Positions 774 through 23,758 of a stretch of DNA of 33,680 bases are shown piece after piece; the first letter of the stretch is position 1, and each line of letters begins with the position of its first letter. The notes below the pieces were generated by a model. The model was not told where the DNA came from. It saw only the letters and a program-made list of their open reading frames with translations, and made no database searches. The DNA is from Sphingomonas bacterium (GTDB lineage: Bacteria; Pseudomonadota; Alphaproteobacteria; Sphingomonadales; Sphingomonadaceae), in NCBI RefSeq assembly GCF_903644135.1, contig NZ_CAHJXA010000002.1, positions 1-33,680 of the forward strand, written 5' to 3'. A program made the translations under genes and the position numbers.

Positions 774-778
774 CGCGG

Positions 779-809
779 CGACCCGACGCAAACCGTTCGC
801 GCCGGGTCG
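779..809. terminator. Hairpin between convergent genes, probable bidirectional terminator
   Basis: CGACCCGACGC (779-789) and GCGCCGGGTCG (799-809) form an 11-bp stem with one mismatch around a 9-nt loop. It lies 5 nt after the ALDH stop and 13 nt before the stop of the convergent minus-strand gene. There is no long T run, so termination efficiency is uncertain. Confidence 0.5.
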
Positions 810-822
810 ATCGATGGCACCA

Positions 823-1200: not shown

Positions 1201-1252
1201 GGACGATCTCCCGAGTGGACGAACCTTGAACAACGCCTGACCGTCGAGGGCA

Positions 1253-2847: not shown

Positions 2848-5337
2848 TTAGAACTTGACCGAAGCGCGGCCGCCAAAGGTACGCGGCGGGCTGGTAAAGG
2901 CCGAGAGCACGTTGCCGAACGCCACCGGCGCGGTGAGCAGGCGATGGTTCTCGATGTTGCGCACAAAGCCCTGCAGCGACCAGCGACCGTTCGCCGGACC
3001 GAACGAGATCTGGCCGTTGGTGGTCCAGCTTGCCGTCTGGATCTGCTCGGACGCATAATCGAAATAGGTGTAGCGGCTGGTCTTGTACGCCGTGTCCACC
3101 CCAAACACGAGCTTGTAGTCGCCCACCGGCACCGTCTGCGATCCACCCAGGTTCAACGACCATTTGGGCGAGTTGTAGGACGGCAGGCCAGCGCAGTTGA
3201 CGTTGAAGAACGGCACGATGCCGAACAACGGTGCCAGCGTCGATGGGGACACCGCGCAGTTGGTGTACGGGTAACCCAGCGTCGAGTAGGTGAAGCTCTT
3301 CGCCTTGGCATCCAGATACTGGACGTCGGCATTGAGCTCGGTCGTCTTGGTCACGAGCACGCGGCCCTCGACCTCGACGCCCTTGATCTCCGAGCGGCCG
3401 ATATTCTGGGTATAGCTGCCGGGACGGTTCAAGGCGTCGACGGCGGCGTGAGCGATCTGCTCGTTGTTATACTTCCAGTAAAAGCCCTCGATATTGAGCT
3501 GGACGCGATTGTCGAAGAAGCGGTTCTTCGAGCCGATCGTGAACGCGGTCAGCGTCTCGGGCTGATAGGTCTCCAGCCCCACAGCGTTGTTAACCCCGCC
3601 CGACCGGAAGCCGGTCTCGACGCTGCCATAGAGCAGCGAGGTGGGGGTCAGGTCGAACTCGACCGCGCCGCGATAGGTCACCTTGCCGTTGCTGAGCTGG
3701 TTGTTGAAGAAGATGTCGGTCCGCGCGATGGTCGTGTTCGGGGTCGGCCCGGGGATACGGAGCGCGATCGCACCCGTGGGGCTGACCGCGGTCGGGATTG
3801 CGAAGGGCAGCGCCTGGTAGGAGGTGATCGTCGGCGGCAGGATCGCCGTCGGGCAGGTGAAGCCCGCGTTGCACGTCTCGGCAATGGTGATGCCGTGCGC
3901 GTTGAAATACTTCTGGTCGTGCGTGTAGCGGACACCGCCAACGAGGCGGAGCCGGTCGGTCAGGTGCGCGGTCAGGCGCAGGAACGGCGCGTAGGAGTCG
4001 GTCCTGACCTGGGTCGGATCCTGGAAGTTCTCGCTGGTGGCGCTGGCCACCGTGCCCGCCTGCAGCTTGGCATTCTCATGATAGTAGAAGAAGCCCAGCG
4101 TATAGTCGAACAGGCTGACCTTGCCGGCAAAGCGGCTCTCGACGCTGTACTGGATGTCCTTCTGGTTGTTGGCGATCGGGAAGCCGCCGCCCGCGTTGCG
4201 ATTGACCACATGATCGAAGCGCACCGCCGGGATGACGGTGAGGACGCCCTTGCCGGTATCCCATTCGAAGTCGCCGTTCGCGCCGTAAAACGAGCTGTCC
4301 TGGTACAGGCTGGGGAACGGATCATATTTACGGCCGGTGACGGCGCTGTTCCGCGACGTCTCGAACGCCTGCGAGGCGGGCGACAGATTGCCGTCCGAGC
4401 GCGGGATGTTGAGCGGCGTGACGACGCAGTTCGGCGTCCGGCCGGGAGTCGTCGGCGTCGCCGCCGAGCAGGCATAGGTGTTGAGGTAGGTGACGCCCGC
4501 CCCGACGCCGCCGAGATGCGAATAGTCGAACGAAACGCGCGCGGTGATGTCCGGCGTCAGTTTCGCCTTCGCCTGGATGCGCAGGCCTTCCGACTTGTCG
4601 TCGGAGGTGCCGTCGAGATCATAGCCGTCGCGGCGGTTAAACACGCCCGAGACGCGGACCGCGCCGTTCTCGCCGAGCGGGAGGTTGATCGCGCCTTCGC
4701 CGGCGAACGCGTTGTAGTTGCCATAGGACACCGTGCCATACCCGCCCAGCTCGCCGAGCTTGGGCTGGGTCGGCAGGACGTTGATCGCGCCGGCAGTGGC
4801 GTTGCGGCCGTAGAGCGTGCCCTGCGGCCCCTTCAGCACTTCGACCCGGTCGAGATCGAAGAAAGTGGTGGAGGTGGCGGTCAGGCGGCCGATATACACG
4901 CCGTCATAGTTGAACGCGACCGCCGGATCGCTGGTGACCGACACCGAGAAGTTGCCGACGCCGCGGATGAACGAGGTCGCCGACGGGCCGACATTGGCGA
5001 TGGTCAGCGCCGGGACCAGCTGGTTGAGCCGCTCGGGCTGAGTGATGCCAGCGCCGGTGATGCCCGCGCCGCTGACGACGCTGATTGCGATTGCCGCCTT
5101 TTGCGAGCTTTCCTGCCGGCGCTGGGCGGTGACGATGATGTCCTGAAGACCGGTCGACCCCTGCGTCTGCGCCGTGGCATCGGCGGTCGCGGAACCGTCC
5201 TGGATGCCGGAAGCCTGCTGCGAGGGAACCGCGTTGCCGGCCGCGACGGGGGGCTGCCCGGTGGCGTCCTGCGCTAGGGCGATGCCCGGCACCATCCCCA
5301 TGGCCAGCACGGTGCCAGCCAGCAACATCTTACGCAT
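2848..5337 (-). CDS. TonB-dependent outer-membrane receptor (first)
   Basis: An 829-residue outer-membrane transporter that takes up a ligand using TonB energy. It has a signal peptide (MRKMLLAGTVLAMGMVPGIALAQ), a low-complexity linker, and a TonB-box-like segment around residues 66-74 (QDIIVTAQR). The plug domain carries LKGPQGTLYGRNA, and a 22-strand-type barrel ends in Phe (RASVKF), as outer-membrane proteins do. Sphingomonads carry many such receptors beside aromatic-catabolic genes; most are of unknown substrate and no siderophore marker is visible. GGGAGAGG precedes the ATG. The leader carries a tandem 11-bp repeat (5412-5440). It heads the minus-strand run to 823. Confidence 0.95.
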   Translation of the reverse strand: MRKMLLAGTVLAMGMVPGIALAQDATGQPPVAAGNAVPSQQASGIQDGSATADATAQTQGSTGLQDIIVTAQRRQESSQKAAIAISVVSGAGITGAGITQPERLNQLVPALTIANVGPSATSFIRGVGNFSVSVTSDPAVAFNYDGVYIGRLTATSTTFFDLDRVEVLKGPQGTLYGRNATAGAINVLPTQPKLGELGGYGTVSYGNYNAFAGEGAINLPLGENGAVRVSGVFNRRDGYDLDGTSDDKSEGLRIQAKAKLTPDITARVSFDYSHLGGVGAGVTYLNTYACSAATPTTPGRTPNCVVTPLNIPRSDGNLSPASQAFETSRNSAVTGRKYDPFPSLYQDSSFYGANGDFEWDTGKGVLTVIPAVRFDHVVNRNAGGGFPIANNQKDIQYSVESRFAGKVSLFDYTLGFFYYHENAKLQAGTVASATSENFQDPTQVRTDSYAPFLRLTAHLTDRLRLVGGVRYTHDQKYFNAHGITIAETCNAGFTCPTAILPPTITSYQALPFAIPTAVSPTGAIALRIPGPTPNTTIARTDIFFNNQLSNGKVTYRGAVEFDLTPTSLLYGSVETGFRSGGVNNAVGLETYQPETLTAFTIGSKNRFFDNRVQLNIEGFYWKYNNEQIAHAAVDALNRPGSYTQNIGRSEIKGVEVEGRVLVTKTTELNADVQYLDAKAKSFTYSTLGYPYTNCAVSPSTLAPLFGIVPFFNVNCAGLPSYNSPKWSLNLGGSQTVPVGDYKLVFGVDTAYKTSRYTYFDYASEQIQTASWTTNGQISFGPANGRWSLQGFVRNIENHRLLTAPVAFGNVLSAFTSPPRTFGGRASVKF

Positions 5338-5607: not shown

Positions 5608-6198
5608 CTAGGCGGAAACCCGCGCCGTCCGGCCAGGCAGGATGCGCCAGAGCACGCCGTCATGCTGGACGAACTGATGCTTGAGCGCCGCACCGATGTG
5701 CAAAAGGATCAGCGCGCCGAACAGATAGGCGAGGTAGACATGGGTGGTGCCGACATTGTTCTCGATCGCCAGGCGCACCGGCATCGGCTGATCATGGACC
5801 ACGCCGATGTGCGGCAGCGGGATCAGCTTGTAGAGCAGGGTCGGCAGGTTGAGCGCGCTGGCGGAGACGATCACCCAGCCGGTCAGCGGCATCACCAGCA
5901 TCAGACCGTAGAAGGTCCAGTGGGTCGTGGTCGCCGCGACCCGCTCCCACGGCTTCATCGTCGCAGGATAGGGCGGCGGCCGATGCGCGAGCCGCCAGCC
6001 GAGCCGCAGCACGCTGAGCGCCAGCACGGTGATGCCGATCGATTTATGCAGCTGGAACAGCGTGAACCGGTCGAGCCCGGTGATCCGGTCCATCCGCCAG
6101 CCGAGCCAGATGTTGAACACGATCAGCGCGGCGATCACCCAGTGGAACGCGATCGCGCCCAGCGAATAGCGCCGCGTGGTGGCGGAGGCGTCGGGCAT
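5608..6198 (-). CDS. Cytochrome b561-family membrane protein
   Basis: A 196-residue four-helix di-heme b protein of the bacterial b561 group, which passes electrons between quinol and periplasmic partners in the inner membrane. I start it at ATG 6198 (MPDASATTRRYSLG), since the residues upstream in that frame overlap the YceI gene and look non-coding; a GGTGG lies about 13 nt upstream. Candidate heme ligands are H19 (AIAFHW), H51 (QLHKS), H93 (TTHWTF), H153 (TTHVYL) and H167 (LLHIGA). It follows the YceI-like gene by 19 nt; b561 and YceI genes are often neighbours in proteobacteria, which suggests a shared quinone- or isoprenoid-related role. It is the last gene of the second receptor operon. 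Confidence 0.92.
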   Translation of the reverse strand: MPDASATTRRYSLGAIAFHWVIAALIVFNIWLGWRMDRITGLDRFTLFQLHKSIGITVLALSVLRLGWRLAHRPPPYPATMKPWERVAATTTHWTFYGLMLVMPLTGWVIVSASALNLPTLLYKLIPLPHIGVVHDQPMPVRLAIENNVGTTHVYLAYLFGALILLHIGAALKHQFVQHDGVLWRILPGRTARVSA

Positions 6199-6217
6199 GG
6201 CTGCGAGCGTTGCCACC

Positions 6218-6808
6218 TCAGCTATGCTTGGCTGCGACGTCGACCGCCAGCTGGACGTTGAATGGCACGGTGTCGGCGGTGGCGAACTGGCCCTGACCGA
6301 CGCCGAAGACATGCCGGTCGATAGTTGCCGTTCCCGTCATCCGCGCCTGGTTACCCTGGATCTTGAGGGTGAAGGGCAGTGCCAGCGGACGAGCGACGCC
6401 GCGGATCGTTAGCGTGCCGAGCGCCTGGTAGCGGCCGCCGCCCAAGTCCTTGAAGCTCTTGGCGGCATAGCTCGCCTGCGCATATTTACTGATCGAGAAC
6501 CAGTCCGCCCCGGGCAGCGCCTCGTCGCGATCGCTGCTGCCGGTCTTGGCGGAGGCCATGTTCACCCTGACCAGCACCGACGAGCCGGCGAGGTTCTTGG
6601 GGTCAAAGCGGATATCGGCGTGCCAGCGAGCGAAACTGCCGCTGAACGGCGCGCCGCCGACGCTGCTCGAGAAGCGCAGGTGCGAGGCCGCCATGTCCGT
6701 CGTCCAGGCCGGCGCTAGCGCCGGCACGGCTGCCACCACGGGCATCATCGCCAGCGGCGCTCCCAGGGCGAGTGCCGACATCAATCCGGCGGCGATCAGC
6801 TTCGTCAT
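6218..6808 (-). CDS. YceI-family periplasmic lipid-binding protein (first copy)
   Basis: A 196-residue secreted protein with a signal peptide (MTKLIAAGLMSALALGAPLA...) followed by a YceI domain. YceI proteins form a lipocalin-like beta barrel that binds isoprenoid lipids such as polyprenyl chains. Matching segments are AASHLRFSSSVGG, GSFARWHADIRFDP, the ISKYAQASYAAKSF strand pair, LGTLTIRGVARPLALPF and the end VPFNVQLAVDV. It sits between the DUF6644-like pair and cytochrome b561 on the same strand with short gaps, so it is probably co-transcribed with them. A second, clearly different YceI gene is at 23065. Confidence 0.9.
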   Translation of the reverse strand: MTKLIAAGLMSALALGAPLAMMPVVAAVPALAPAWTTDMAASHLRFSSSVGGAPFSGSFARWHADIRFDPKNLAGSSVLVRVNMASAKTGSSDRDEALPGADWFSISKYAQASYAAKSFKDLGGGRYQALGTLTIRGVARPLALPFTLKIQGNQARMTGTATIDRHVFGVGQGQFATADTVPFNVQLAVDVAAKHS

Positions 6809-6853: not shown

Positions 6854-7357
6854 CTATACAAACCCGACCCATCGCCCGGCAACCACCACGCCGATCCAGA
6901 AGACCAGCGACAGCCCCGCCGCGATCCGCACGCCCCGCGGCGTCGGCACCCGCTCGTTCCATTCGTGCACCTGCCGCCAGGCACCGCGATGGAAGATGAG
7001 CATATTGGCACCGGCCAGCGCGAGCAGCACCATCTTGATGCGGAACGGCACATTGGCATAATATTTGGTCGCCGCCGACACGAACATCAAGCTGCCGGTG
7101 ATCGCCGCGACGATGAACGCGGTCCAGGTCCAGGGAAGCACCTCGTCCGACAGCTGCATCGCGCCCATCGTGCGGGTGGAAATACCCAGCAGGCGAAGGT
7201 CGAGCATCGCGATCGACCCGACCACCAGGGTCAGCGCAAGGACGTGGATCGTCTCGATCGTCGGGAAGATCCATTCCGATTCGGTGATCTTCACCGCAAG
7301 CGGCGTCGCCTCGATCCAGGTGGCGACCTGGAACAGCATCGTGCCACCGCCGCTCAT
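6854..7357 (-). CDS. DUF6644-like membrane protein (second of pair)
   Basis: A 167-residue inner-membrane protein with about four hydrophobic segments. It resembles the DUF6644 group through the block FPTIETIHVLALTLVVGSIA followed by MLDLRLLG, also found as VPTLQSVHILAIAIVMSSIG plus MLDLRLAG in the next gene upstream. Function is unknown for the family as far as I know. The His in ETIHV is shared by both copies and could bind heme or metal; this is inference. I start it at ATG 7357, whose ATGA overlaps the stop of the upstream gene, which suggests translational coupling. An internal ATG (MLFQ) 18 nt later is an alternative start. Confidence 0.85.
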   Translation of the reverse strand: MSGGGTMLFQVATWIEATPLAVKITESEWIFPTIETIHVLALTLVVGSIAMLDLRLLGISTRTMGAMQLSDEVLPWTWTAFIVAAITGSLMFVSAATKYYANVPFRIKMVLLALAGANMLIFHRGAWRQVHEWNERVPTPRGVRIAAGLSLVFWIGVVVAGRWVGFV

Positions 7358-7854
7358 ACATGCCCCCCGGCATAGGCGATCCAGCGGCCGCAGGTCAGCA
7401 CCGCCACCCACAGCGCCAGCGAGATTAGTGCGCAGACGCGGATGATCGCGCGCTTGCCGGCCGGCAGGTCACGATAGCGGCAATCCTCCAGCAGCAGCGG
7501 GATTGGAGCGGTGAACAACGCCGCGCCGATGATCAGCCCCATCTTGGTCCAGAACACCCAGTTGAGCAGCTCGCGCGCCGGCTCGGCCATGATCTGCAAC
7601 AGCCCCGTCGCGAGCAGCACCGCAAGCGCGCCCCAGATCCAGGGATAGAAGCGCAGGGTTAGCCCCCGCATCGACTGCTCGCGCCCCAGGAAGCCGGCGA
7701 GCCTCAGGTCGAGCATCCCGATCGACGACATGACGATCGCGATCGCCAGGATATGAACGCTCTGCAACGTCGGCACCGCCCAGTTATGGTTGGCGATAGC
7801 GGTGCTCAGCGACGTCGTCGCCAACCAGTCGCTTGCCGCCTGCAACCTTTCCAT
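7354..7854 (-). CDS. DUF6644-like membrane protein (first of pair)
   Basis: A 166-residue paralog of the gene it overlaps, with the same layout: a short N-terminus, the conserved SVHILAIAIVMSSIGMLDLRL block, then three more hydrophobic stretches (IWGALAVLLATGLLQ, MGLIIGAALFTAPIPLLL, VCALISLALWVAVLTCG). The start is ATG 7854 with GGGAGAGG just upstream; the TTG one codon earlier has no room for a ribosome site. Two divergent copies translated together suggest a heterodimer in the inner membrane. The gene lies 169 nt behind the second TonB-dependent receptor, with YceI and b561 downstream. Confidence 0.85.
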   Translation of the reverse strand: MERLQAASDWLATTSLSTAIANHNWAVPTLQSVHILAIAIVMSSIGMLDLRLAGFLGREQSMRGLTLRFYPWIWGALAVLLATGLLQIMAEPARELLNWVFWTKMGLIIGAALFTAPIPLLLEDCRYRDLPAGKRAIIRVCALISLALWVAVLTCGRWIAYAGGHV

Positions 7855-7901
7855 CAACCTCTCCCATCTGTGTTGGCGGTCGGCACCACAACCGGGAACG
7901 A

Positions 7902-8023: not shown

Positions 8024-10390
8024 TCAGAAATGAGCGCCCAGCGTCGCACCGAAGGTGCGCGGAGCGCCCGGTGCGAAGGCGAAGCTGGTGGCCACCTGAC
8101 CAACGGCATAGGTGTATTCCTTGGTCAGGTTCTTGACCCAGAGCTGGATGTCGTAGCGCTTGCTGGGTGCCGTCCAGCCGAGCGAGGCATCGACGATGTG
8201 ATGGGCGTCGTTCACCACATATTGGGCCGAGGTCGGATAGGACTCGTTATAGTGGTCATTGGCGCTCAGCGTGAACGAGCCCTGGCGGGTGTTGATGTTG
8301 TAGACCGCGCCGATTGTCGCCGACACGGGCGCGGCGAACTGCGGCGTCGCGCCGGCGAGGTTGCACAGCGTGTTGACCACCGTTCCTACCGTGACACCGC
8401 GGGCATCGACGCGCGGAACGCCCGGCGTGGGGCAAGTGGTGCCGGGGAAGTCGGCGTATTTGGCGTCGAGATACTCGATCGCGCCGTTCAGGGTCAGCCC
8501 GCGGACCGGCACGACGCTGAGGTCGATGTCGACGCCGTCGACCTTCTCCCTGGCCGCGTTCAGCAGCAGCGCGTTGCCGGGCGCGGCGGGCGGCGACATC
8601 GACCGGACCTGGACGTTCTGGTAGTTGTAATGGAAGTAGGAGGCGTTGAAGCGCAGCCGCCGATCGAAGAACTCGGACTTCACCCCGCCTTCTGTCGCGT
8701 ACAGCAGCTCGGGCGTCACCGGCGGGTTGTTGAAACCGTTGCCGTTATACGCGCCCGACTTGAAGCCCAGGTTATGCGACGCGAACAGGTGGATGTTGTC
8801 GCCGATGTCCTGCGCCAGCACGAAGCGGTAGGTCAGCTTGTGGAACACCAGCCGCGTCGGGATGCCGTTGGGGAACGACGCCGCGATGACGCCATTGGTG
8901 AAGAGCGCGAAAGGCTGCCCCGGATAATAGACGATGCCGGGCGTTGTCGCGGTCGCCGGCACGCCGAGCGTCGCGACCGAGTTCGGGTAGCCCGCCAGCG
9001 GCGAAAGCTGACCGGTCAGCGTCTTGCGCTCGGCGGTGTAGCGCAGGCCGACCGTCAGGTGCGTCCCCTTGAAGAAGCGGTAAGAACCGTCGCCGAACAC
9101 CGACCCTGACAGCGTGTTGGGAAAACCGTTGTTGCGCTGCGGTGTCCCCAGGCAGTTGGCCGGAAGCGGACCGTTGCAGGTTGGCAGCGAGTCCAGCCGC
9201 AGCTGGGTATGGTCGTCATAATAGAACGCACCTAGCACCCAGTCGAAACGGTTGTCCGGCGATGCCTTGGAGACAAGCTGAAGCTCCTCGCTGAGCGACC
9301 GGTTCTTCTCGTAGAAATTGCTGTACGCCGTGGTCTCGCCGGCCAGCGGCTGCCCCGGGCCGGGGCCACCGCCGGCGAAGGCGACGTTGGCGTGGCTGGC
9401 CTGGAAGCCGCTCAGGCTCTGCAAGGTGGCGAAGCCCAGGTCCTGCTCGACCTTCAGCGTGCCGATATAGATGTTGGTCGGGGCCGACGGATCGATCCGC
9501 AAGGTGCTGCGATACTTGCCCTGATAGGTCGTGCCGTCGTTGGCGATCGTGCCGGGCAACACCTCATAGGCATAGCCGTAGTCGCGGTTGTTGTAGTCGT
9601 AGATGAAGCTGGTGGTGATCTTGGTGTTCGACCCCGGCCGCCAGACCAGCTTGGCCTGGACGCCGGTCTCGTTCGACTTCTGGATATCGCTGCCGGTGAC
9701 GAGGTTGCGGCTCCAGCCGTCGCTCTGCTTCTGGTGGTAGACGGCGACCCCGGCCGCCAGCGTGTCGGTCAGCGGCGTCGCGGCGTAGAGATTGGTCGTC
9801 AGCGTATTGTAGTTGCCATAGCCGACCGAGGCATCGACGCGGGTGGTGTCGCCGGGATCGCGGGTGATGACCGAGATCAGGCCGCCGGTCGCGTTGCGGC
9901 CATACAGCGTCCCCTGCGGCCCCTTCAGCACCTCGACCCGCTCGATATTGTTGAACGAGTAGATGCCGACTGTTGGGTTGGCGAGGTAGAGGCCGTCGAT
10001 ATAGACCGCGACCTGCGCCTCGTTGAAGCCGGTGCTGGGCGTGCCGATGCCGCGCAGATAGATGTTGTTGCCGCCCGACGGCGTCACCACCAGGCCCGAT
10101 ACCAGGCTCGGCAGCGACAGCACGCCGGTGACGTTGAAGGCCTTGAGCGTGGAGGCGGACACCGCCTGGATGGTGATCGGTACCGCCTGCAGGTCGGCGC
10201 TGCGACGGGTCGCGGTGACGACGATGTCCTCGACCGCGGAGGATGTGGCCGCGTCCGGAGCGCCGGTCTGATCGGTCGCGCCCGGGGCGTTCGACGGCGT
10301 CACCGGGCTGGCCGGCTGCGCGGTCTGCGCCAAGGCGGGCTCCGCGGCGAACAGCGACGCGGAGAGAAACAGAGCGGTCTTGATGGTCAT
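8024..10390 (-). CDS. TonB-dependent outer-membrane receptor (second)
   Basis: A 788-residue TonB-dependent receptor. The signal peptide is MTIKTALFLSASLFAAEPALAQ. A TonB-box-like EDIVVTATRR lies at residues 54-63, the plug carries IYLRGIGTPSTG and LKGPQGTLYGRNA, and the barrel ends in Phe (GATLGAHF). It is only distantly like the first receptor outside the plug, so the two probably take different ligands or different forms of one ligand. GAGGATTAGGC precedes the ATG. It is divergent from the secreted-protein operon at 10795 across 404 nt, so the two operons may share regulation. DUF6644-like, YceI and b561 genes follow on the same strand. Confidence 0.95.
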   Translation of the reverse strand: MTIKTALFLSASLFAAEPALAQTAQPASPVTPSNAPGATDQTGAPDAATSSAVEDIVVTATRRSADLQAVPITIQAVSASTLKAFNVTGVLSLPSLVSGLVVTPSGGNNIYLRGIGTPSTGFNEAQVAVYIDGLYLANPTVGIYSFNNIERVEVLKGPQGTLYGRNATGGLISVITRDPGDTTRVDASVGYGNYNTLTTNLYAATPLTDTLAAGVAVYHQKQSDGWSRNLVTGSDIQKSNETGVQAKLVWRPGSNTKITTSFIYDYNNRDYGYAYEVLPGTIANDGTTYQGKYRSTLRIDPSAPTNIYIGTLKVEQDLGFATLQSLSGFQASHANVAFAGGGPGPGQPLAGETTAYSNFYEKNRSLSEELQLVSKASPDNRFDWVLGAFYYDDHTQLRLDSLPTCNGPLPANCLGTPQRNNGFPNTLSGSVFGDGSYRFFKGTHLTVGLRYTAERKTLTGQLSPLAGYPNSVATLGVPATATTPGIVYYPGQPFALFTNGVIAASFPNGIPTRLVFHKLTYRFVLAQDIGDNIHLFASHNLGFKSGAYNGNGFNNPPVTPELLYATEGGVKSEFFDRRLRFNASYFHYNYQNVQVRSMSPPAAPGNALLLNAAREKVDGVDIDLSVVPVRGLTLNGAIEYLDAKYADFPGTTCPTPGVPRVDARGVTVGTVVNTLCNLAGATPQFAAPVSATIGAVYNINTRQGSFTLSANDHYNESYPTSAQYVVNDAHHIVDASLGWTAPSKRYDIQLWVKNLTKEYTYAVGQVATSFAFAPGAPRTFGATLGAHF

Positions 10391-10794: not shown

Positions 10795-11583
10795 ATGCGC
10801 CCCTTGACCAGCATCTGCCGCCGAGTGGCCTTGGCCGCTGCGTCCGCCTGCCTCGCAATGCCGGCAATGGCCGGCACCCAAGCGCAAACCGCGCCGCAGG
10901 GGCAGATCGCGCCGGAGCAGCTCAACTGGCATGGCGATGCCAAGGCACCGGATATCAGCGGCGTCTGGGTGCGGGCCGATACTCCCGCCGCCAGTGGCAG
11001 CAAGGAAGGCTGGGCTCCCTGGGCACCGCCGCTGAAGGGAGCTTTCGCCGAGACCTGGAAGAAGCGCGTCGCCGATGCCGCCGCCGGCACCCGCACCGAC
11101 GATCCGGTGCGCGGATGCCAGCCGCCGGGGATGCCGCGCTTCATCACCGGCTCCAACGGGCCGATGCTGATCATGCAGACCCCGGGCCGGGTGATGCTCT
11201 ATCGCGACGGCATGCCGGTGCGCCGCGTCTGGCTCACCCCAGCCGCCCTGCCGGCGGCGAAGGATATCGAAAGCTTCTCCAACGGCAACGCGATCGGCAA
11301 GTATGAGGGGCAGGACCTCGTGACGCAGATCGTCGGCATCAAGGACCAGCCGATCGACAGCACCGGCGTGCCGCATAGCAACGCCCTGAAGATCGCCGAG
11401 CGGTTCCACCGCGTCGGCGCCAATACCATGACGGTGACGGTGACGCTGACCGACCCCGCCGCCCTGACCCGGCCGATGACGTCCACCGTGACATATCACC
11501 TGCTCGGCGATCCCAAATGGGAGCCGCATGAGTTCCTGTGCACGCCCAACACCAATTACTCGCCGGACAAATATGTTCATTGA
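10795..11583 (+). CDS. Secreted protein with PDISG motif, paralog A, unknown function
   Basis: A 262-residue protein I cannot assign to a function. The start is ATG 10795, after GAGAGGAAG; the upstream part of the frame (MMRRRQRDE...) is unlikely because the signal peptide begins at MRPLTSICRRVALAAASACL. The mature part opens with APDISGVW (51-58), then GCQPPGMP with C108, QTPGRVMLY (128-136), PVRRVW and a final Cys, C249 (FLCTPN). The same landmarks in the same order occur in the gene at 12093, so the two are paralogs. Exported, near two receptors and a DUF6152-like protein, it may act on or bind the imported compound in the periplasm (inference). Confidence 0.85.
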   Translation: MRPLTSICRRVALAAASACLAMPAMAGTQAQTAPQGQIAPEQLNWHGDAKAPDISGVWVRADTPAASGSKEGWAPWAPPLKGAFAETWKKRVADAAAGTRTDDPVRGCQPPGMPRFITGSNGPMLIMQTPGRVMLYRDGMPVRRVWLTPAALPAAKDIESFSNGNAIGKYEGQDLVTQIVGIKDQPIDSTGVPHSNALKIAERFHRVGANTMTVTVTLTDPAALTRPMTSTVTYHLLGDPKWEPHEFLCTPNTNYSPDKYVH

Positions 11584-11659
11584 GCGCTGCGCCGGCGGTC
11601 GTTCAGCACTCCGCCAGCCAGCCTTGGCCATATTCGATGATCGACCGACTAGAGGAAAC

Positions 11660-12052
11660 ATGATGACCAAGAAGATCCGTATCCTTGCCGCGCTGGCGGT
11701 GATTGCCGCGCCGCTGCCGGTGCTGGCGCATCATTCGTTCGCGATGTTCGACAAGTCCAAGGAGATCGTGCTTAAGAATGCGGTCGTGAAGGACTGGCAA
11801 TGGACCAGCCCGCACACCTGGCTGTACCTCGTGGTGCCGAACGGGTCAGGCACCCCCGACAAATATTCGATCGAGGGCGGCAACCCGGGTGCGATGCGGC
11901 GTGACGGCTTTGCCAAGGGATCGCTGTCGCCCGGCGACAAGGTCACCGTCTACGCGGCACCGCTGCGCAGCGGTGAGAAGGGCGGCAGCCTGAATGCCGT
12001 CGTCCTGCCCAACGGCAAGATGCTGGGCGAGCGGATGAAGCCAGGCGCGTGA
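11660..12052 (+). CDS. DUF6152-like small periplasmic protein
   Basis: A 130-residue exported protein: signal peptide MTKKIRILAALAVIAAPLPV ending at LAHH, then the HHSFAMFD block right after cleavage that marks the DUF6152 group. VVKDWQWTSPHTWLYL follows, then a beta-rich remainder with GGNPGAMRR and GDKVTVYAAPLRSG, ending at ERMKPGA. The new N-terminus would begin at or next to His-His, a feature often seen in metal-binding proteins; that reading is inference. Two ATG codons (11660 and 11663) follow AGAGG and either may be used. It lies between two paralogous secreted proteins with gaps of 76 and 40 nt, so the three are probably one operon. Confidence 0.88.
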   Translation: MMTKKIRILAALAVIAAPLPVLAHHSFAMFDKSKEIVLKNAVVKDWQWTSPHTWLYLVVPNGSGTPDKYSIEGGNPGAMRRDGFAKGSLSPGDKVTVYAAPLRSGEKGGSLNAVVLPNGKMLGERMKPGA

Positions 12053-12092
12053 GGTCGGCGGCGGTGCTGGACCGCAACAAGGGAACAGGCAG

Positions 12093-12926
12093 ATGATCAA
12101 GCGCCTATCGATCGGCATGGCGGCCACGGTGCTCGCCGCTCTTGCCGTTCCCACGCCGCTGGCCGCCCAGGACGCTGATCGCGCCTGGCCGCCTGCCGGC
12201 GTCTCCTATTATGGCGACCCCGGCGTGCCCGACATCTCGGGCTTGTGGCTTGGGACGACGATGGGTGTGCCCGGCGGCGCGATCGCCAGCAACACCGGCA
12301 AGACCGCCGATGGCCGCCCGCCCTCCTTCCTGGCCCCCTGGCCGCTCCCCTACACCGCCGCCTTCAAGAAGATGTCGGACGAGCGCGCCGCCGCCGCCAA
12401 GGCGGGCAAGCAGATCGGCGACACCGGATCGCGATGCCTGCCGTTCGGCATTCCCTTCCTGATGCTGTCCGAAGCCTATCCCAATGAGGTGGTACAGACC
12501 CCGGGGCAGGTGTCGGTCTTCTTCTTCACCGCTTTCCCGGTGGTGGTCTGGACCGACGGTCGCGGCCATCCCGCCGACCTGAAGCCGAGCTATAACGGCC
12601 ATTCGATCGGTCACTGGGTCGGCAACACGCTGTATGTCGACACGGTCGGCCTGCGTGGCGAGACGCCGCTGGAAAGCCATTTCGACCCGCACAGCGACCA
12701 GTTCCATTTCCGCTGGACCATGCAGCGCGTCGCCGATGGCGTGATGCACGTCCACATCACACTGTTCGACGAGGGCGCGTTCACCGAGCCGGTCGAGAGC
12801 ACCAACATCTGGCATCGCAAGACCGACTATAAATGGGCGATGCTCGACGACCAGTCATGCTTCGAGAACGCGGCCGGTATCAGCGCCAACGCCAAGCCCC
12901 CCGAAGAAGGCTTCATGAAGTTCTGA
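12093..12926 (+). CDS. Secreted protein with PDISG motif, paralog B, unknown function
   Basis: A 277-residue exported protein (signal peptide MIKRLSIGMAATVLAALAVP, ending near PLAAQ). Landmarks match the gene at 10795: VPDISGLW (45-52), CLPFGIP with C115, QTPGQVSVF (135-143), PVVVW, NGHSIGHWVGNTL against NGNAIGKYEGQDL, PHS, and a late Cys, C256 (QSCFEN). The overall likeness is low, so the duplication is old. Histidines are frequent in the second half (SHFDPHSDQFHF, HVHITLF), which could bind a metal or form an active site; no known catalytic motif is recognised. It precedes the MFS gene by 48 nt and is probably co-transcribed with it. Confidence 0.85.
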   Translation: MIKRLSIGMAATVLAALAVPTPLAAQDADRAWPPAGVSYYGDPGVPDISGLWLGTTMGVPGGAIASNTGKTADGRPPSFLAPWPLPYTAAFKKMSDERAAAAKAGKQIGDTGSRCLPFGIPFLMLSEAYPNEVVQTPGQVSVFFFTAFPVVVWTDGRGHPADLKPSYNGHSIGHWVGNTLYVDTVGLRGETPLESHFDPHSDQFHFRWTMQRVADGVMHVHITLFDEGAFTEPVESTNIWHRKTDYKWAMLDDQSCFENAAGISANAKPPEEGFMKF

Positions 12927-12974
12927 CGATCGCATAAGGGGGTGCGCTGAACGGCTTTGGGGGGAGAGCCTGGA

Positions 12975-14297
12975 ATGACGAGCGCGACAGCGGCAGCAGG
13001 CACCGCGCCCGGCCTGGCCTGGGACAGTCGCTATGAGTGGCGCGCGGTGCTGCTGCTCACCCTTGGCTTCGGGCTGGTCGGGCTTGATCGCTGGGTGATC
13101 GCCGACCTGGCCGGGCTGCGCTCGTCGACGATGGTCAGCGACCTCGCGCTGCGACCGCAGGACGTCGGCAACCTCGTCGCCTCGCTCGGCATCGCCTGGG
13201 GCGTGTCGTCGCTGTTCATGGGTAATCTGTCCGACGTGTTCGGGCGCCGGCGGGTGATCGTGCCGTCGCTGGTGCTGTTCTCGATCCTGTCCGGGTTTTC
13301 GGGACTGGCCGGCACGTTCCTGGCGATGCTGCTGTGCCGGATCACCATGGGGCTGTTCGAGGGCGCGTTCTGCCCATCGAGCTTCGCCGCCGTCGCGGAG
13401 GCGTCGCTGCCGCGGCGGCGCGGCAACAATCTTGGGTTTCAGCAGAGCGCCTTCGCGCTGTTCGGCCTGGGCTTCGGCCCGACGATCGCGGCGTTGCTGC
13501 TCGGCTCGATGAGCTGGCGCTGGGTGTTCGCGATCGTCGGCATCCCCGGCCTGATCGTCGCCGCGCTTGCCGCACGCATCATCCGCGAGCCGGCGTCCAT
13601 CCTCGCCCGCCGCCAGAGCCAGGCCACGGGCCGGGCGGTCGCCAAGCCGCCGCGGCTGTCGCTCGCCGCGCTTACCAGCCATCGCAATCTGCCGCTCAGC
13701 ATGGCGGGGCAGCTGTGCGCGATGTGCGGCATCTTCGTGCTGTCCGCCTTCACTCCCGCCTATCTCAGCGGTTATCTGCACCTCAGCGATGCGGCGACGG
13801 CCGGTGTGACCTCCGCGATCGGCTTTGGCGGCTTTCTCGGCCAATGGGGCCTTCCCGCCGCGTCCGACCGGTTCGGCCGGCGCGCGGTGGCGATCACCGG
13901 CTTCGTCGTCAGCAGCGGCTTCCTGTTGCTGTTCACTCGCCTCGACGCGGCGAGCGGGGTGACGACGCTGTTCGCGACGCTGTTCCTGGCCTCGGGCTTC
14001 TCGTTTGGGCTGCTCAGCCTGATCAGCGGGCCGATCGCGTCGGAGGCGGCACCGCTCGGCATGGTCGGCGGCGTGATCGGCGTGGTCGCGGCGGTGGCGG
14101 AGATCTTCGGCGGCGGCGTCGCGCCCTCACTGGGAGGCTATATCGCCCAGCATTACGGCATCCAGCACGTCCTCTGGCTGGCGCTGGCTGGTCTGGTAGC
14201 GGGGATCGTCGTCAGTCTGTTCTTCATCGAGACAGCGCCGCGGCTGGCCCGGATCGGCGAGGGTGAACGCTCGGCGCTCGACGCCACCGTCTCTTGA
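12975..14297 (+). CDS. MFS transporter, probably for an organic or aromatic acid
   Basis: A 440-residue, 12-helix major facilitator. The start is ATG 12975, preceded by GGGGGGAG; the frame can be opened from TTG 12957 but that codon lies upstream of the ribosome site. Helix 1 carries an Asp (LVGLDRWV, D38). The loop after helix 2 has the family motif A, GNLSDVFGRRR (83-93), and the second half has a degenerate copy, ASDRFGRRAV. This pattern fits proton-driven organic-anion carriers of the ACS/AAHS groups. The genomic position, just ahead of ring-cleavage genes, suggests it imports the aromatic substrate or an intermediate. The exact substrate is unknown. Confidence 0.9.
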   Translation: MTSATAAAGTAPGLAWDSRYEWRAVLLLTLGFGLVGLDRWVIADLAGLRSSTMVSDLALRPQDVGNLVASLGIAWGVSSLFMGNLSDVFGRRRVIVPSLVLFSILSGFSGLAGTFLAMLLCRITMGLFEGAFCPSSFAAVAEASLPRRRGNNLGFQQSAFALFGLGFGPTIAALLLGSMSWRWVFAIVGIPGLIVAALAARIIREPASILARRQSQATGRAVAKPPRLSLAALTSHRNLPLSMAGQLCAMCGIFVLSAFTPAYLSGYLHLSDAATAGVTSAIGFGGFLGQWGLPAASDRFGRRAVAITGFVVSSGFLLLFTRLDAASGVTTLFATLFLASGFSFGLLSLISGPIASEAAPLGMVGGVIGVVAAVAEIFGGGVAPSLGGYIAQHYGIQHVLWLALAGLVAGIVVSLFFIETAPRLARIGEGERSALDATVS

Positions 14298-14425: not shown

Positions 14426-15037
14426 ATGATGGCAACTGCCCTCGATACCGCCCCGACCACCACCAGCGACGCCATCGTTTCGCCGGATCGGCTGGCGCAC
14501 GTCGTCCTGCGCACCTCGCGGTTTAAGGAGATGGTGGCGTGGTACAAGCTGGTGTTCAACGCGACCCCTGCGTTCGAGTCGGAGCATATCGCCTTCCTCG
14601 CCTATGACGACGAGCATCACCGCATCGCGCTGATCAACATCCCCAATCTCGCGTCGCCGCCCAAGGGCGTCGTAGGCGTCCATCACTTCGCCTTCACCTA
14701 CAATTCGATGAGCGACCTGCTCGGCAACTACGTCAAGCTGCGCGACAAGGGTGTCGTGCCGGTGTGGGGAGTCAATCACGGCCCGACCACATCGTTCTAC
14801 TATGCCGATCCGGAGGGCAATAACGTCGAGCTGCAGGTCGACAATTGCGACACGGTCGAGGAGGCGGGCGAGTTCTTCTTCACCGAGAACTTCCGGCAGA
14901 ACGCGATCGGCGTCGACGTCGATCCCGAGGACCTGTACCAGCGCATGATGGGCGGCGAGGACGAGGCGTCGCTCAAGGCCTATCACCCGATCGGCTATCG
15001 TTCGGTCGAGGATTCGCCGCTCGAAGGCGCCGCCTGA
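14426..15037 (+). CDS. One-domain VOC protein, candidate extradiol ring-cleavage dioxygenase
   Basis: A 203-residue vicinal-oxygen-chelate protein with two beta-alpha-beta modules (about residues 22-74 and 83-139). H25 (LAHVVL), H87 (VHHFAF) and E135 (NNVELQV) are in the places of the iron ligands. The stretch VNH, five residues, FYYADPEG, then E135 satisfies the extradiol-dioxygenase signature as I remember it from PROSITE PS00082, giving H118 as the candidate catalytic His. Two-domain enzymes of this family are near 300 residues, so this would be a one-domain type; such enzymes are known. A glyoxalase-like or isomerase role remains possible. GAGAGG lies upstream, with ATG at 14426 or 14429. 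GST follows after 32 nt. Confidence 0.85.
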   Translation: MMATALDTAPTTTSDAIVSPDRLAHVVLRTSRFKEMVAWYKLVFNATPAFESEHIAFLAYDDEHHRIALINIPNLASPPKGVVGVHHFAFTYNSMSDLLGNYVKLRDKGVVPVWGVNHGPTTSFYYADPEGNNVELQVDNCDTVEEAGEFFFTENFRQNAIGVDVDPEDLYQRMMGGEDEASLKAYHPIGYRSVEDSPLEGAA

Positions 15038-15069
15038 AGCCGCATCGCCGGTAGCATGACAGGACCAGC

Positions 15070-15720
15070 ATGACCCAGCCCAGCCTGACGCTCCACCATT
15101 TCCCCGGTGCCTGCTCGCGCGTGACCGTGTGTGCGCTGGAGATGGCGTCGCTCGACTATGACCTCGCCTTGGTCGACATCACCAAGGGCGCGCAGAACGC
15201 CGACGCGTATCTGGCAATCTCTCCGCTCGGCAAGGTGCCGCTGCTGGTTGCCGACGGTGCGCCGCTGGCGGAGAACATCGCCATCCTCAGCTATATCGCG
15301 GCGTTACGGCCCGACAGCGGCATCTTCCCGCGCGATCCGTCGCCGCGACTGCTCGCCGACACGATGAGCGGGCTGTCCTTCTGCGCGGGCACGGTCCACG
15401 TCCAGATCCGCGGCCTTGCCAATCCGCAGCGGCTCACAAACGGCGACGTCGAGGGCGTGCGCGAGAAGTCGAAGGAGTTGGCCAAGAAGTCGTTCGGCTA
15501 TGCCGAGCGCCGACTGGCCGAGCGTGGCTGGTGGGCGGGCGAGCCGACCATCGCCGACGTCTATGTCGACTGGACCTTCTCGGTCGCCAGCAGGAACGGA
15601 TTCGACGCTGATATATACCCGACGTTGGCGTCGTTCCCCAAGCGGTTGACCGACGCCCTGCCCGCCTATGCGCGGATGCTGGAGGAGGAAGACCGCTCGC
15701 GCGCGGCGCTCGGCCTCTAG
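15070..15720 (+). CDS. Glutathione S-transferase family protein
   Basis: A 216-residue cytosolic GST: thioredoxin-fold N-terminal half with LTLHHFPGACSRVTV, where C15/S16 sit at the usual active-site position, the cis-proline loop SPLGKVPLLV, and the gamma-glutamyl-binding LAENIAIL. An all-helical C-terminal half contains WWAGEPTIADVYVDW, the conserved Asp capping motif. In aromatic-degrading sphingomonads, GSTs carry out ether cleavage, ring-cleavage-product isomerisation (maleylpyruvate isomerase type) or dehalogenation; none can be chosen here. It is downstream of the one-domain VOC gene. Its TAG stop overlaps the stop of the convergent flavin monooxygenase inside CTAG. Confidence 0.92.
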   Translation: MTQPSLTLHHFPGACSRVTVCALEMASLDYDLALVDITKGAQNADAYLAISPLGKVPLLVADGAPLAENIAILSYIAALRPDSGIFPRDPSPRLLADTMSGLSFCAGTVHVQIRGLANPQRLTNGDVEGVREKSKELAKKSFGYAERRLAERGWWAGEPTIADVYVDWTFSVASRNGFDADIYPTLASFPKRLTDALPAYARMLEEEDRSRAALGL

Positions 15721-17357
15721 GCGTCCTGCCGGAGCGACTCACCGGCTGCAGTCTCGTGCTGACGCCCGGTGACGACGTCGAGCAAGCCGTCCTCCCACCG
15801 ATCGCCGCGCCACGCGACGAACTGGTCGGGCCGGACCAGCGTCAGCCGTGCCGGATACAGCGCGCCTGCCTCCTCCTCGGTCAGGTGGACCACGCTTAGC
15901 GGCACGTTGCCAGCCTGCGCGGTCGCCCGCTCGACGTCTGCCGGCTCCGCCTCGGGCCGACAAAGCAGCGCGAATTTGTTCGCGAACGCGTCGTACAGCG
16001 AGCTGCCGTCGGCACGCCAGCGATGCGGGGCAAGGCAACCGGGGCGGCTGGTCGGGATATAGACGCGGCTGTCGGATGGCGACGTCGGCGCTGCCTCACT
16101 GACGATCACCGGTGAGCTGCCATAGCACCCTCCCAGCACCGTCCCGAGCGTGTGGAACTCGCGCTGCTTGGCACCGACGATACGCTCGCCCACCTCGGCG
16201 CGCAGCCGCTCCCCCGCCTCGCCCGGCTCCTCGATGCCGTCACGCCACAGGTCGTTGGACAGAACCGCATGGTTGGCCGTCGCTTCCGCCATCACCGCCT
16301 CATGGATCGGCCGCCGCTCGACCTCATAGCTGTCGAGCAGTGCCGGGCCGCCCCAGCCGCACACCGTCGCCGCCAGTTTCCAGCCGAGATCGACGCCATC
16401 GGCCAGCCCCATGTTCATGCCATAGCCGCCGAACGGCGGGTGCAGGTGGCAGGCATCGCCCGCCAGGAAGATGCGGCGGTCGCGATAGCGGTCGGCTATC
16501 AGGCTGCTGGCGACCCATTCATCGCTGCTGAGCACCTCATAGGGCAGATCGAACCCGGTCGCCTGGCGGATCATCGTCGCCGCCAGATCCTTGGTGATCG
16601 TCACGCCCTCGGGCAGCCGGGTTGGCATGAAGAACCAGATATCGTCCTTGTCCATCGGACCGACGAGGCCCGGCATGGCGGGGTTGAGCTGCCAATACAT
16701 CGACGCCGGGCCATGGCCATGCGCCTCAGCCAATCCGGGCGCGCGGAAGACGATGTTGTAGTTGCGCGACAAACCGTATGTGCCCGACATACCCGCGCCG
16801 ATCGCCTCGCGCACGCCGCTGCGCGCGCCATCAGCACCGACCAGATAGCGCGCCGTCAGCGTCTCGGCCTCGCCGGTGTCGACGCGCTTCAGGGTCACCG
16901 TCACGCCATCGGCGTCCTGGGTCGCGCCGGCGAACTCCGTGCTGAACTGCAGCCGCACCGACGGCAGCGTCTCGGCATGTTCACGCAACACCTGTTCCAG
17001 CTTGTATTGCGGGATCCACTGACCATGCTCGGGATAGCGCTCGTCGCGCGCCGGAGCGCAGTTCGACGCATTTTCGATCCTCGCCACCAGCGGCCCGGCC
17101 AGCTTGGTGACGAATGCCACATCGGTCGGGTAATCGACGCCGAACGGCGATGCAGCCGCCAGGTCGCCGGCAATCCCCCAGCGGCGCAGATGCGTGCGGG
17201 TACGTACGTTGGTAGTCTTTGCGCGCGGGGCGTAGCCGACCCGGTCGTTGCGTTCGACCACTAGGCAGTCGACGCCGCGCATACCCAGCTCATTGGCCAG
17301 AGCGAGCCCGCTCGGCCCGGCACCGATGATCACGACGGACGTCTCGTGGGTGGTCAT
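15717..17357 (-). CDS. FAD-dependent aromatic hydroxylase (class A flavin monooxygenase)
   Basis: A 546-residue flavoprotein of the PheA/TfdB/MhpA group, which hydroxylates phenolic rings with NAD(P)H and O2. The FAD-binding GAGPSG is at 12-17, the second-strand acid at VVERND, the DG motif at LVGADGARS (about 173-180) and the GD motif at IFLAGDACHLHPPFGG (about 296-311). A thioredoxin-like C-terminal domain (RPEAEPADVERA...VRPDQFVAWR) is typical of the phenol-hydroxylase subgroup. I start at ATG 17357, with AGGAG 8 nt upstream; the frame reads 93 nt further upstream, but that part lacks signs of coding. It lies behind LysR on the same strand and converges on GST. Confidence 0.94.
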   Translation of the reverse strand: MTTHETSVVIIGAGPSGLALANELGMRGVDCLVVERNDRVGYAPRAKTTNVRTRTHLRRWGIAGDLAAASPFGVDYPTDVAFVTKLAGPLVARIENASNCAPARDERYPEHGQWIPQYKLEQVLREHAETLPSVRLQFSTEFAGATQDADGVTVTLKRVDTGEAETLTARYLVGADGARSGVREAIGAGMSGTYGLSRNYNIVFRAPGLAEAHGHGPASMYWQLNPAMPGLVGPMDKDDIWFFMPTRLPEGVTITKDLAATMIRQATGFDLPYEVLSSDEWVASSLIADRYRDRRIFLAGDACHLHPPFGGYGMNMGLADGVDLGWKLAATVCGWGGPALLDSYEVERRPIHEAVMAEATANHAVLSNDLWRDGIEEPGEAGERLRAEVGERIVGAKQREFHTLGTVLGGCYGSSPVIVSEAAPTSPSDSRVYIPTSRPGCLAPHRWRADGSSLYDAFANKFALLCRPEAEPADVERATAQAGNVPLSVVHLTEEEAGALYPARLTLVRPDQFVAWRGDRWEDGLLDVVTGRQHETAAGESLRQDA

Positions 17358-17518
17358 CGCCCGCTCCTGATAATGGTACAACGGTTTGCCCGTCCGGTGT
17401 CGTGATGAAACATGATGTCGCGCAATTGGCGGTCGCTGCGCAAGATGCACGATGTTAAATGCGGCGGAGTGACACGGATACGTTATCGATGCCTGCTCTA
17501 CCGCCCGCTACGCTATCG

Positions 17519-18445
17519 CTACGGACCGCGTTCCGCGTCTCGGCGATGTACGTAATTGAGCGCCGCCCGTCGCATAAGGTCGCAGAAGATCTCGGCGAGC
17601 GGTGTCAGCGGCATGTCGCGGCGGCGAACGATGCAGATCGGCACGCCGGCGATCGGCTCGTCGAGCGGCAACGGCGCGACGAGGTTCGACAGCAATGGGA
17701 AGTCAAGCCACTGCTCGGGCAGGATGGTCAGCAGGTCGGAGTTCATGATGACCAGCAGCATCACCATCGCCGAGCGTGCGTGAAGCGCCACTCGCGGCGG
17801 ATCATAGCCCTGTTCCTCGAACAACAGATCGACATCGACATCGGCATTGTTGCCGGACAGGACCGGCCGCACCCATTCGGCGTCGACCAGATCGCTCAGC
17901 TTGCGCGCATTGGCGAGCGGATGGTCCTTGCGCGCGAGGATGAGCCGGCGATTGTCGAACAGCTTCTCCACCGTGAACTGCTGCGAGACCTGGACGATGT
18001 CGATCGGCCCGACATAGAAATCGACCGCTCCGGCCAGGATATCGGCCTCGATTGGCCGGAAGAAGCTTTCGGAAATCTTCAGCAGCGCGTCGGGACAGCG
18101 TTTGCGGAACGCCTTGACCGCCGACGGCATCAGGCTGAGGCTCGACGCGGTCGACAGCGATACCGCGACCTCGCCGACGTTACGCCCCTTGAGCTGGTCC
18201 ACCTCCTCGCGCGCACGGCGCAGCTCGGAGTGGACCGCGCTGGCCCGCCGCACGAACGCCGCGCCGATCTCCGTCAAGCGCACCCCGCGGGCATGTCGCT
18301 CGAACAGCGTCGCACCCAGTTCCTGCTCGACCTCGCGGATGCTGCGCGTGATCGCGGGCTGGGCGACGCCGATCTGGCGGCCGGCGGCGCGAAGGCTGCC
18401 ATGTTCGGCCACGGCAATCACGTCGCGCAGGTGGCTGAGTTTCAC
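17519..18445 (-). CDS. LysR-family transcriptional regulator
   Basis: A 308-residue LysR regulator. The N-terminal winged helix-turn-helix is clear: MKLSHLRDVIAVAEHGSLRA, AGRQIGVAQPAITRSIREVE and LGATLFERHARGVRLT (to about residue 57). A linker helix and a two-lobed effector domain follow (VGEVAVSLSTASSL, PDALLKISE, GAVDFYVGPID). It is divergent from the amidohydrolase operon (18727) across 281 nt that hold a dyad, and the flavin monooxygenase lies behind it on the same strand. The usual LysR arrangement makes it the probable activator of the ring-cleavage operon, responding to the substrate or an intermediate; the effector is unknown. Confidence 0.94.
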   Translation of the reverse strand: MKLSHLRDVIAVAEHGSLRAAGRQIGVAQPAITRSIREVEQELGATLFERHARGVRLTEIGAAFVRRASAVHSELRRAREEVDQLKGRNVGEVAVSLSTASSLSLMPSAVKAFRKRCPDALLKISESFFRPIEADILAGAVDFYVGPIDIVQVSQQFTVEKLFDNRRLILARKDHPLANARKLSDLVDAEWVRPVLSGNNADVDVDLLFEEQGYDPPRVALHARSAMVMLLVIMNSDLLTILPEQWLDFPLLSNLVAPLPLDEPIAGVPICIVRRRDMPLTPLAEIFCDLMRRAALNYVHRRDAERGP

Positions 18446-18726
18446 GGTCGGTGTTCATCCTTTCGATGACATGGTCGTTAGAGGTGTAGGGCACGCGCCG
18501 ATGACGAACAACCCGAACGATCTTGAGGTGATAGCCGCCAACATCGCCTCCCGTGCGGTATCGGAGAGCAGAAATTGTTATCTCCGGTTTGACCTGGCTC
18601 CTGCCTATGTCAAAGCGGTCGCGACGCCACCGAACGGCAATGGCGCGCAGGAGAGACCGAAGCGATGATCGCAGCACCGTCCTCTCGCATCCTTGGCAGG
18701 TTCCGTCTGGCAGGAGCGTCATCGCT
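18446..18726. promoter_or_regulatory. Divergent control region between LysR and the amidohydrolase operon
   Basis: A 281-nt region without a supported gene. CGGAGA (18562-18567) and TCTCCG (18581-18586) form a perfect dyad with an AT-rich 13-nt spacer, centred about 130 nt from the LysR start, a plausible LysR recognition site. The AGGAG at 18712-18716 serves the GTG start at 18727. Confidence 0.5.
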
Positions 18727-19740: not shown

Positions 19741-19776
19741 GCCGCCAGGATCGATGAACCACAAAAGGACGATGCA

Positions 19777-20628: not shown

Positions 20629-20639
20629 GAGAGACTGAC

Positions 20640-21901: not shown

Positions 21902-21988
21902 GCGTCACCTCTCCGTTGCGATAGCGGTCGAAAGCACGAACACCGTCCCGGGTTCCTCGACATCCGCGTGAGGCCGTGGAGCAGACGC

Positions 21989-23029: not shown

Positions 23030-23064
23030 TTCTGTATCGTCATCGCTTTCTTCGGGAGATCATC

Positions 23065-23679: not shown

Positions 23680-23706
23680 CCCGCGTTCGGCTTAGGTCGA
23701 CCATTT

Positions 23707-23758
23707 GATCGGTGCCGATCGCACGTTACAGTTGATCTGTAACGGTACGGCTACCGTA
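23707..23758. promoter_or_regulatory. Three adjacent dyads upstream of the cytochrome c operon
   Basis: GATCGG and CCGATC (23707-23720, 2-nt centre), CGTTACAG and CTGTAACG (23724-23744, 5-nt centre) and TACGG and CCGTA (23746-23758, 3-nt centre) follow each other within 52 nt. All are perfect. They lie after the YceI stop and about 90 nt before the cytochrome start. The middle one looks like a dimeric repressor operator of TetR type; the first could alternatively be part of a terminator. Confidence 0.55.

Follow-up and report, generated by a model that had tools for sequence, protein, structure and literature searches.

Lipocalin-like barrels (FABP, CRABP, NanoLuc), histidine-brace proteins (CopC, LPMO, YcnI/DUF1775) and the membrane protein CopD (PF05425) are the described systems closest to the proteins considered here. 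In fatty-acid-binding proteins, the chain is ordered as a strand, helices and further strands. In the histidine brace, as set out in PMC10952591, the ligands of copper are an N-terminal His, through both its amino group and its side chain, and a second His. YcnI is described as binding Cu(II) through its N-terminal His and a Glu (PMC8424229) and as exchanging Cu(II) with YcnJ (PMC12362106), and the genes of CopC and CopD are placed in extended pmo operons in the account of PMC6189053. Pfam families PF19649 (DUF6152) and PF20349 (DUF6644), whose cut-offs are exceeded by proteins of the present locus, are both described as having unknown function.

The window, i.e. the whole stretch of 33,680 nucleotides that was analysed, carries two genes, A and B, on either side of a DUF6152 gene. 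All three are on the plus strand, with intergenic gaps of 76 bp (A to DUF6152 gene) and 40 bp (DUF6152 gene to B). A and B are members of what is called below the barrel family, after the predicted fold of B. The features were as follows.

2848..5337, minus strand: second TonB-dependent receptor, context
5608..6234, minus strand: cytochrome b561-type protein, context; near in 0 of 53 other loci
6218..6808, minus strand: YceI-like exported protein, context; near in 1 of 53 other loci
6854..7357, minus strand: DUF6644 membrane protein, second of a tandem pair (PF20349 match)
7354..7857, minus strand: DUF6644 membrane protein, first of the tandem pair (PF20349 match)
8024..10390, minus strand: TonB-dependent receptor, divergent from A, occasional partner
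10795..11583, plus strand: A, exported barrel-family protein, 262 aa (ORF, BLASTP, alignment, tree)
11660..12052, plus strand: DUF6152 protein, 130 aa, predicted mature N-terminus His-His (PF19649 match)
12093..12926, plus strand: B, exported barrel-family protein, 277 aa (ORF, BLASTP, alignment, model, tree)
12972..14297, plus strand: MFS transporter, 45 bp past B, possibly co-transcribed

Proteins A and B

A single pairwise BLASTP comparison of A with B gave 32% identity over 218 aa (E=1e-28), and on the tree both fall into two sister sphingomonad clades with good (starred) support. The first-pass annotation had presented them as ancient secreted paralogs. Their paralogy is borne out and, since the two clades are sister and well supported, "ancient" is correct at the level of the order, the split being an old one as judged from the tree. 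Signal peptides were recognized on both, as on the DUF6152 protein, by eye. The landmarks said to be shared in the same order were found in the two translations: PDISG, CQPPGMP, QTPG, PVRRVW, NGNAIG, PHS and a late Cys in A; PDISG, CLPFGIP, QTPG, PVVVW, NGHSIG, PHS and a late Cys in B. The Cys pair is likewise conserved, both residues (C90 and C231 of mature B) being invariant, along with G144, across 96 aligned family members (near-full-length ORFs from 94 places, plus A and B; 105 ORFs had a barrel hit). The profile search that had been proposed assigned neither A nor B to a family, no match being obtained in Pfam up to E=1 or in NCBIfam up to 0.1. Over the 96 members, Pfam returned only five hits, one member each (best E 0.027), and NCBIfam none up to 0.001.

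At nine polar positions (134, 145, 149, 151, 158, 180, 183, 184 and 201, mature B numbering), the commonest residues of the family read HHHEDHERD, each present in 65 to 90 of the 96 members. A reads LNKEQKERD, lacking the four commonest His and keeping E/R; B reads HHHVDHWTD, keeping the His set with W/T in place of E/R. Pairing of an A-type with a B-type gene is retained in four loci (L007, L008, L009, L012). An obligate A-B heteromer with complementary sites, E/R being supplied by A and the His set by B, is not claimed: because A and B represent two sister clades, the complementarity counts as one event, a single duplication. It is further weakened by locus L011 (20.8 kb), where a B-type gene is present and an A-type gene absent. 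L002 (3.8 kb) and L010 (4.2 kb) also have a B-type gene without an A-type one, but both are short.

Predicted folds

AlphaFold predicts B to be a meander barrel (pLDDT 83, pTM 0.82) in which a helical segment is inserted between strands 1 and 2, as in FABP, CRABP and NanoLuc. These barrels scored Z 8.0-8.9 among the best 50 matches listed; nanoKAZ/NanoLuc luciferase (Z 8.9, rmsd 3.0, 112 aligned) and CRABP2 (Z 8.7, rmsd 4.3, 132 aligned) were among the first rows, a Z of 8-9 being near the level reached by models without a clear relative. Foldseek gave no hit for the B model at E<=0.001 (best E 0.027), and the family profile had no sequence match up to E=1 among solved chains. B probably adopts a fatty-acid-binding-protein-like barrel, as far as the model indicates. 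Unlike FABP, CRABP and NanoLuc, the barrel family is exported, larger and equipped with two invariant Cys.

For the DUF6152 protein, the AlphaFold model (pLDDT 92.5) matched PriB with Z 9.0 and rmsd 2.7 (81 of 107 aligned), and in Foldseek the OB-fold match had a probability of 1.00 but an E of 1.8e-3. An OB-fold is likely from this model but not certain, this Z too being close to what models lacking a clear relative attain. CusF is an OB-fold copper protein; it was not among the best 50 structural matches listed for DUF6152, and may be present further down. A predicted N-terminal His is a feature DUF6152 has in common with histidine-brace proteins, and its invariant inner His and Glu may contribute to a comparable metal site. 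It differs from these proteins by two adjacent His at its start and, in the case of YcnI, by a predicted OB-fold instead of a cupredoxin fold.

Association of the three families

Barrel genes were searched in species genomes, which resulted in 60 loci from Sphingomonadales, Caulobacterales, other Proteobacteria, Acidobacteriota and Myxococcota; in an even class sample, the family was present in 2 of 57 genomes, the window's own included. Distances were counted in eight genomes, selected for the presence of barrel genes and not including G060 and G061, which are described below. There, a barrel gene is found no more than 500 bp from 60 of the 74 DUF6152 genes (on the same strand for 54 of the 60), where by our own arithmetic well under one would be expected by chance. 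Of the 101 barrel genes, 59 are as close as this to a DUF6152 gene and 42 are not. The same picture emerged from the loci, whose counts include a few overlaps (L004 with L005, L031 with L049). Among 60 DUF6152 genes, 39 had a barrel gene at most 300 bp away on their own strand and 16 on the opposite one, with three within 1.5 kb and two farther away; among 102 barrel genes, DUF6152 was found within 300 bp on the same strand for 43, on the other strand for 17 and within 1.5 kb on the same strand for four, the remaining 38 falling in none of these classes. The window's own genome, an 82% complete assembly in 387 contigs, contains six genes of the barrel family and three of DUF6152, all three of the latter adjoining a barrel gene. 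In genome G006, the two families are naturally fused in a single open frame of 391 residues (L076, 150-1322, minus strand).

Across 147 Sphingomonadales genomes, the barrel family occurred in eight and DUF6644 (E<=0.001) in nine, i.e. in 8/8 barrel-bearing genomes vs 1/139 others (G198). This co-occurrence has a P of 2e-12 by genome and 1.7e-6 by genus, both assuming independence; one of the eight, G201, has a DUF6644 below the Pfam cut-off (E 1e-5) that is strong with our own DUF6644 profile, and in G104 the barrel genes and DUF6644 are about 31 kb apart. In the eight genomes selected for distance counts, the nearest barrel gene is at most 5 kb away for 38 of 42 DUF6644 genes, at most 1.5 kb for 24 and at most 500 bp for six; 36 of the 42 are accompanied by another copy no more than 400 bp off. 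In the loci, the 1.5 kb limit to a barrel gene holds for 26 of 30 DUF6644 hits. DUF6644 relatives occur at most 3 kb from module genes in 13 of 53 non-sphingomonad loci, none being seen farther away within those loci. Taking 70 loci together, many of them short contigs, DUF6644 is found in 19 and DUF6152 in 51; L011 has a barrel gene and a DUF6644 pair, DUF6152 being absent.

On account of position, co-occurrence, fusion and paired conservation, the barrel family, DUF6152 and the DUF6644 pair very probably constitute one conserved module, as read from sequence comparison. The trio proposed in the first-pass annotation was right in joining the A/B family to DUF6152, a link that the distances and the natural fusion make real, and incomplete in leaving out the tandem DUF6644 membrane pair. 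The first-pass annotation gave the module no definite job, and no function was found in the databases searched. In the library searched, no paper mentioning DUF6152 or DUF6644 was found, and none on PQQ-dependent proteins with DUF6152. The link of PF19649 and PF20349 with the barrel family is the addition made here; it turns three separate unknowns into one testable system.

Proposed function

With a probability of about 0.4, the module is tentatively read as a periplasmic ligand- and metal-handling unit that serves oxidative catabolism, a function we infer from the combination of many ligand-variable exported barrels, a probable metal protein and a membrane pair, often in oxidative or catabolic settings. 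Barrel proteins would bind or present hydrophobic, often aromatic compounds that enter the periplasm, in the window's case probably by way of the nearby TonB receptors, and their lid would probably be pinned by the conserved, predicted disulfide. DUF6152 would hold a metal, most likely copper, by means of its N-terminal His and its invariant inner His and Glu. The DUF6644 pair may act as an inner-membrane heteromer passing on metal, electrons or ligand. Barrel paralogs would supply the substrate range and the other parts the common chemistry, the whole feeding oxidative catabolic clusters such as that located downstream in the window.

Barrel copy number, catabolic surroundings and the possibility of enzymes

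Copy numbers in the ten genomes reached via the loci ranged from 2 to at least 136. The highest value was that of G060 (L032; Bryobacterales, Acidobacteriota), with at least 136 barrel copies when 150 of 205 candidates were scored, and G061 (L018; Caulobacteraceae, 2.6 Mb assembly) has 58. A few of the copies listed for these two genomes contain an in-frame stop. At least 136 copies of an unnamed family without Pfam or NCBIfam match in a single Acidobacteriota genome are as expected of a family varying in its ligand.

The window module is followed downstream by a catabolic gene cluster encoding the MFS transporter, a VOC protein, a GST, an FAD monooxygenase, an amidohydrolase and an extradiol dioxygenase-like protein. 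Two further genes of this cluster were assigned to LysR and FAA hydrolase type from their sequences. The region 14426-21605 is a probable aromatic ring-cleavage cluster. Because lichen assemblies (L007, L009, L010, L012) yielded near relatives of B, lichen phenolics are a possible substrate. Elsewhere, neighbours vary widely. A second neighbour set (148 genes, minus 20 overlapping module genes or spurious-looking, i.e. 128) comprised 117 Pfam families, none of them in more than five neighbours: short-chain dehydrogenases (5), FAA hydrolase (3), LigA/LigB (2), xanthine permease (2) and many singletons. No copper family was among the top 25 of the near-neighbour family counts, a point against the preferred reading. 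Some loci do have oxidative or aromatic neighbours, namely LigA/LigB, FAA hydrolase, an amidohydrolase, PQQ dehydrogenases and cytochrome c. A general link with ring-opening LigB dioxygenases was rejected, LigB genes being near the barrel gene in 2 of 24 cases (counted by eye).

Three genomes (G092, G201, G088; loci L084, L085 and L089) share an island with barrel genes, DUF6644 and DUF6152. Its scanned copy (L084) contains three PQQ dehydrogenase-type genes, a carboxylesterase and a cytochrome c; in the other two, genes were recognized by sequence, the scan covering only HupE (L089) and a TPR protein (L085). Some barrel-family hits in these three loci come in pieces that lie in a single frame, which suggests that the domain carries inserts. 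A plasmid of Novosphingobium humi has a DUF6644 pair, a barrel gene and DUF6152 together; next to them are genes for an electron-transfer flavoprotein and an enoyl-CoA hydratase, with a glycosidase-like gene intervening. A Sphingobium plasmid has two barrel-DUF6152 pairs and a DUF6644 pair, with monooxygenase genes on one side and a TonB receptor on the other; the members of all three pairs carry the annotation "hypothetical".

The barrels may be either carriers or enzymes. One alternative is that barrels are enzymes, each acting on a different periplasmic compound at a shared polar site (His134/145/149/180, Glu151, Asp158, Glu183-Arg184, Asp201), with DUF6152 and DUF6644 delivering metal or electrons. 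Such a role would agree with the retention of each of the nine HHHEDHERD residues in most distant paralogs, with the very high copy number and with the PQQ dehydrogenase-type, carboxylesterase and cytochrome c genes of the island, mainly known from L084. However, His145 and His149 are both present in only 70 of 96 members and both missing from A, and the invariant residues are the two Cys and a Gly rather than a catalytic set. We consider this alternative unlikely.

TonB receptors

The receptor reported as divergent from A is the TonB receptor gene at 8024-10390. Short inverted repeats only were found by an operator search in the spacer between A and this receptor. The survey of how often the trio sits beside such receptors gave a less general picture: one was detected within 3 kb in 20 of 70 loci and was absent in 50, many of these loci being short and the profile, derived from the window's own kind, possibly missing distant receptors. 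In a first neighbour set based on crude gene calls, where 132 of 328 near and 143 of 214 distant ORFs were sampled, the receptor barrel domain occurred in 7/132 near neighbours vs 2/143 distant ones. Among the 53 non-sphingomonad loci, relatives of each window receptor were within 3 kb in seven, and relatives of each DUF6644 copy in 13. A general link was rejected on the locus and neighbour counts, and the receptor is kept as an occasional neighbour.

These figures bear on a second alternative, by which the barrels would be plain ligand carriers for TonB-linked uptake, handing receptor-imported compounds to inner-membrane transporters, with DUF6152 only stabilizing them. Receptors divergent from or adjoining the genes in several sphingomonad and Caulobacterales loci, together with MFS genes adjoining in some, are what such carriers would show; the 50 loci without receptor, subject to the limits just given, are not, and the invariant His-His start of DUF6152 is left unexplained. 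Plain TonB-linked carriage appears quite unlikely.

DUF6152, DUF6644 and a possible role of copper

The middle protein had been called DUF6152-like with a His-His start; it scores above the threshold of PF19649 (99.7 bits, cut-off 27), and its mature form is predicted to begin with HHSF. The dipeptide His-His comes immediately after Ala (65 hits) or Gly (2) in each of the 67 hits, 66 of them distinct, that extend to the N-terminus, a count made without selection for His-His. Three residues ahead of the dipeptide, 49 hits have Ala and the others Val, Leu, Gly, Thr, Ile or Ser. These residues are as at a signal-peptidase site, so that cleavage before His-His is predicted. The single remaining hit, which lacks His-His, is truncated where L005 ends. 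The alignment of DUF6152 proteins, picked with a His-His requirement, has inner His29 and Glu49 invariant in 56/56. Six DUF6152 proteins of the class sample also start with His-His; five are from genomes without a barrel gene and one is the fusion. As divergent members without a barrel gene have the same start, the site belongs to DUF6152 at large and is not specific to the module. DUF6152 had no match in phage records. The conserved start offers a direct first experiment, namely copper binding.

Both DUF6644 copies of the window, placed on the far side of the TonB receptor from A, exceed the PF20349 cut-off of 27 (48.5 and 48.6 bits). His38, Gly88, Phe105, Lys108, Gly161 and Arg162 (window copy) are invariant in 32 aligned copies. 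In a tree of 19 pairs, first and second genes separate, with two label changes vs 12.9 in shuffles and L052 and L055 as exceptions, a separation that fits an old heteromer at the sequence level. Like CopD, DUF6644 is a small membrane protein with several helices that accompanies an exported protein with a predicted N-terminal His; unlike CopD, it mostly occurs as two different short copies in tandem, and it scores below the family cut-off. Two of ten scanned DUF6644 proteins matched CopD (PF05425, cut-off 32.1 bits): the L056 copy (E 2.7e-4, 21.7 bits) and one window copy (E 0.011, 16.5 bits); no CopD match was listed for the other eight. DUF2214 was a more frequent weak match, below cut-off, in seven of the ten. 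The CopD likeness suggests, weakly, a resemblance in layout and not membership.

An improbable third alternative is copper or metal acquisition or homeostasis in the style of CopC-CopD or YcnI-YcnJ, with DUF6152 as chaperone, DUF6644 as membrane part and barrels for storage: the N-terminal His-His with further His and Glu, the weak CopD similarity of two DUF6644 proteins and the precedent of Cu(II) binding by YcnI (PMC8424229) speak for it, but both CopD scores are below cut-off and rarer than those of DUF2214, neighbours look catabolic rather than metal-related, and metal homeostasis gives no obvious need for 58 or 136 barrel paralogs.

A bolder version of the ligand- and metal-handling unit can be formulated, which we hold to be a long shot. 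DUF6152 would be an OB-fold histidine-brace metalloprotein which, with the DUF6644 heteromer, would power or supply a periplasmic copper-dependent oxidation. If so, interchangeable barrel paralogs, up to about 136 per genome, would present different substrates to it.

Other genes of the window

YceI, cytochrome b561, SUMF1-like, cytochrome c, PPIase and HupE proteins were rejected as members of the module, their relatives lying within 3 kb of module genes in 0 to 2 of the 53 non-sphingomonad loci; the cytochrome c, PPIase and HupE cases (L031, L049) overlap on one contig and count as one. In the window, genes for a SUMF1-like protein, YceI, a two-domain cytochrome c, a PpiC-type isomerase and HupE/UreJ form a run on the plus strand (21974-26696). 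Relatives of its last three members lie near barrel genes on the L031/L049 contig, and HupE is also found in L089. In L087, a PepSY-type membrane protein (272-1741, minus strand) stands beside a TonB receptor and a DUF6644 pair, in what we take to be a metal-reductase setting.
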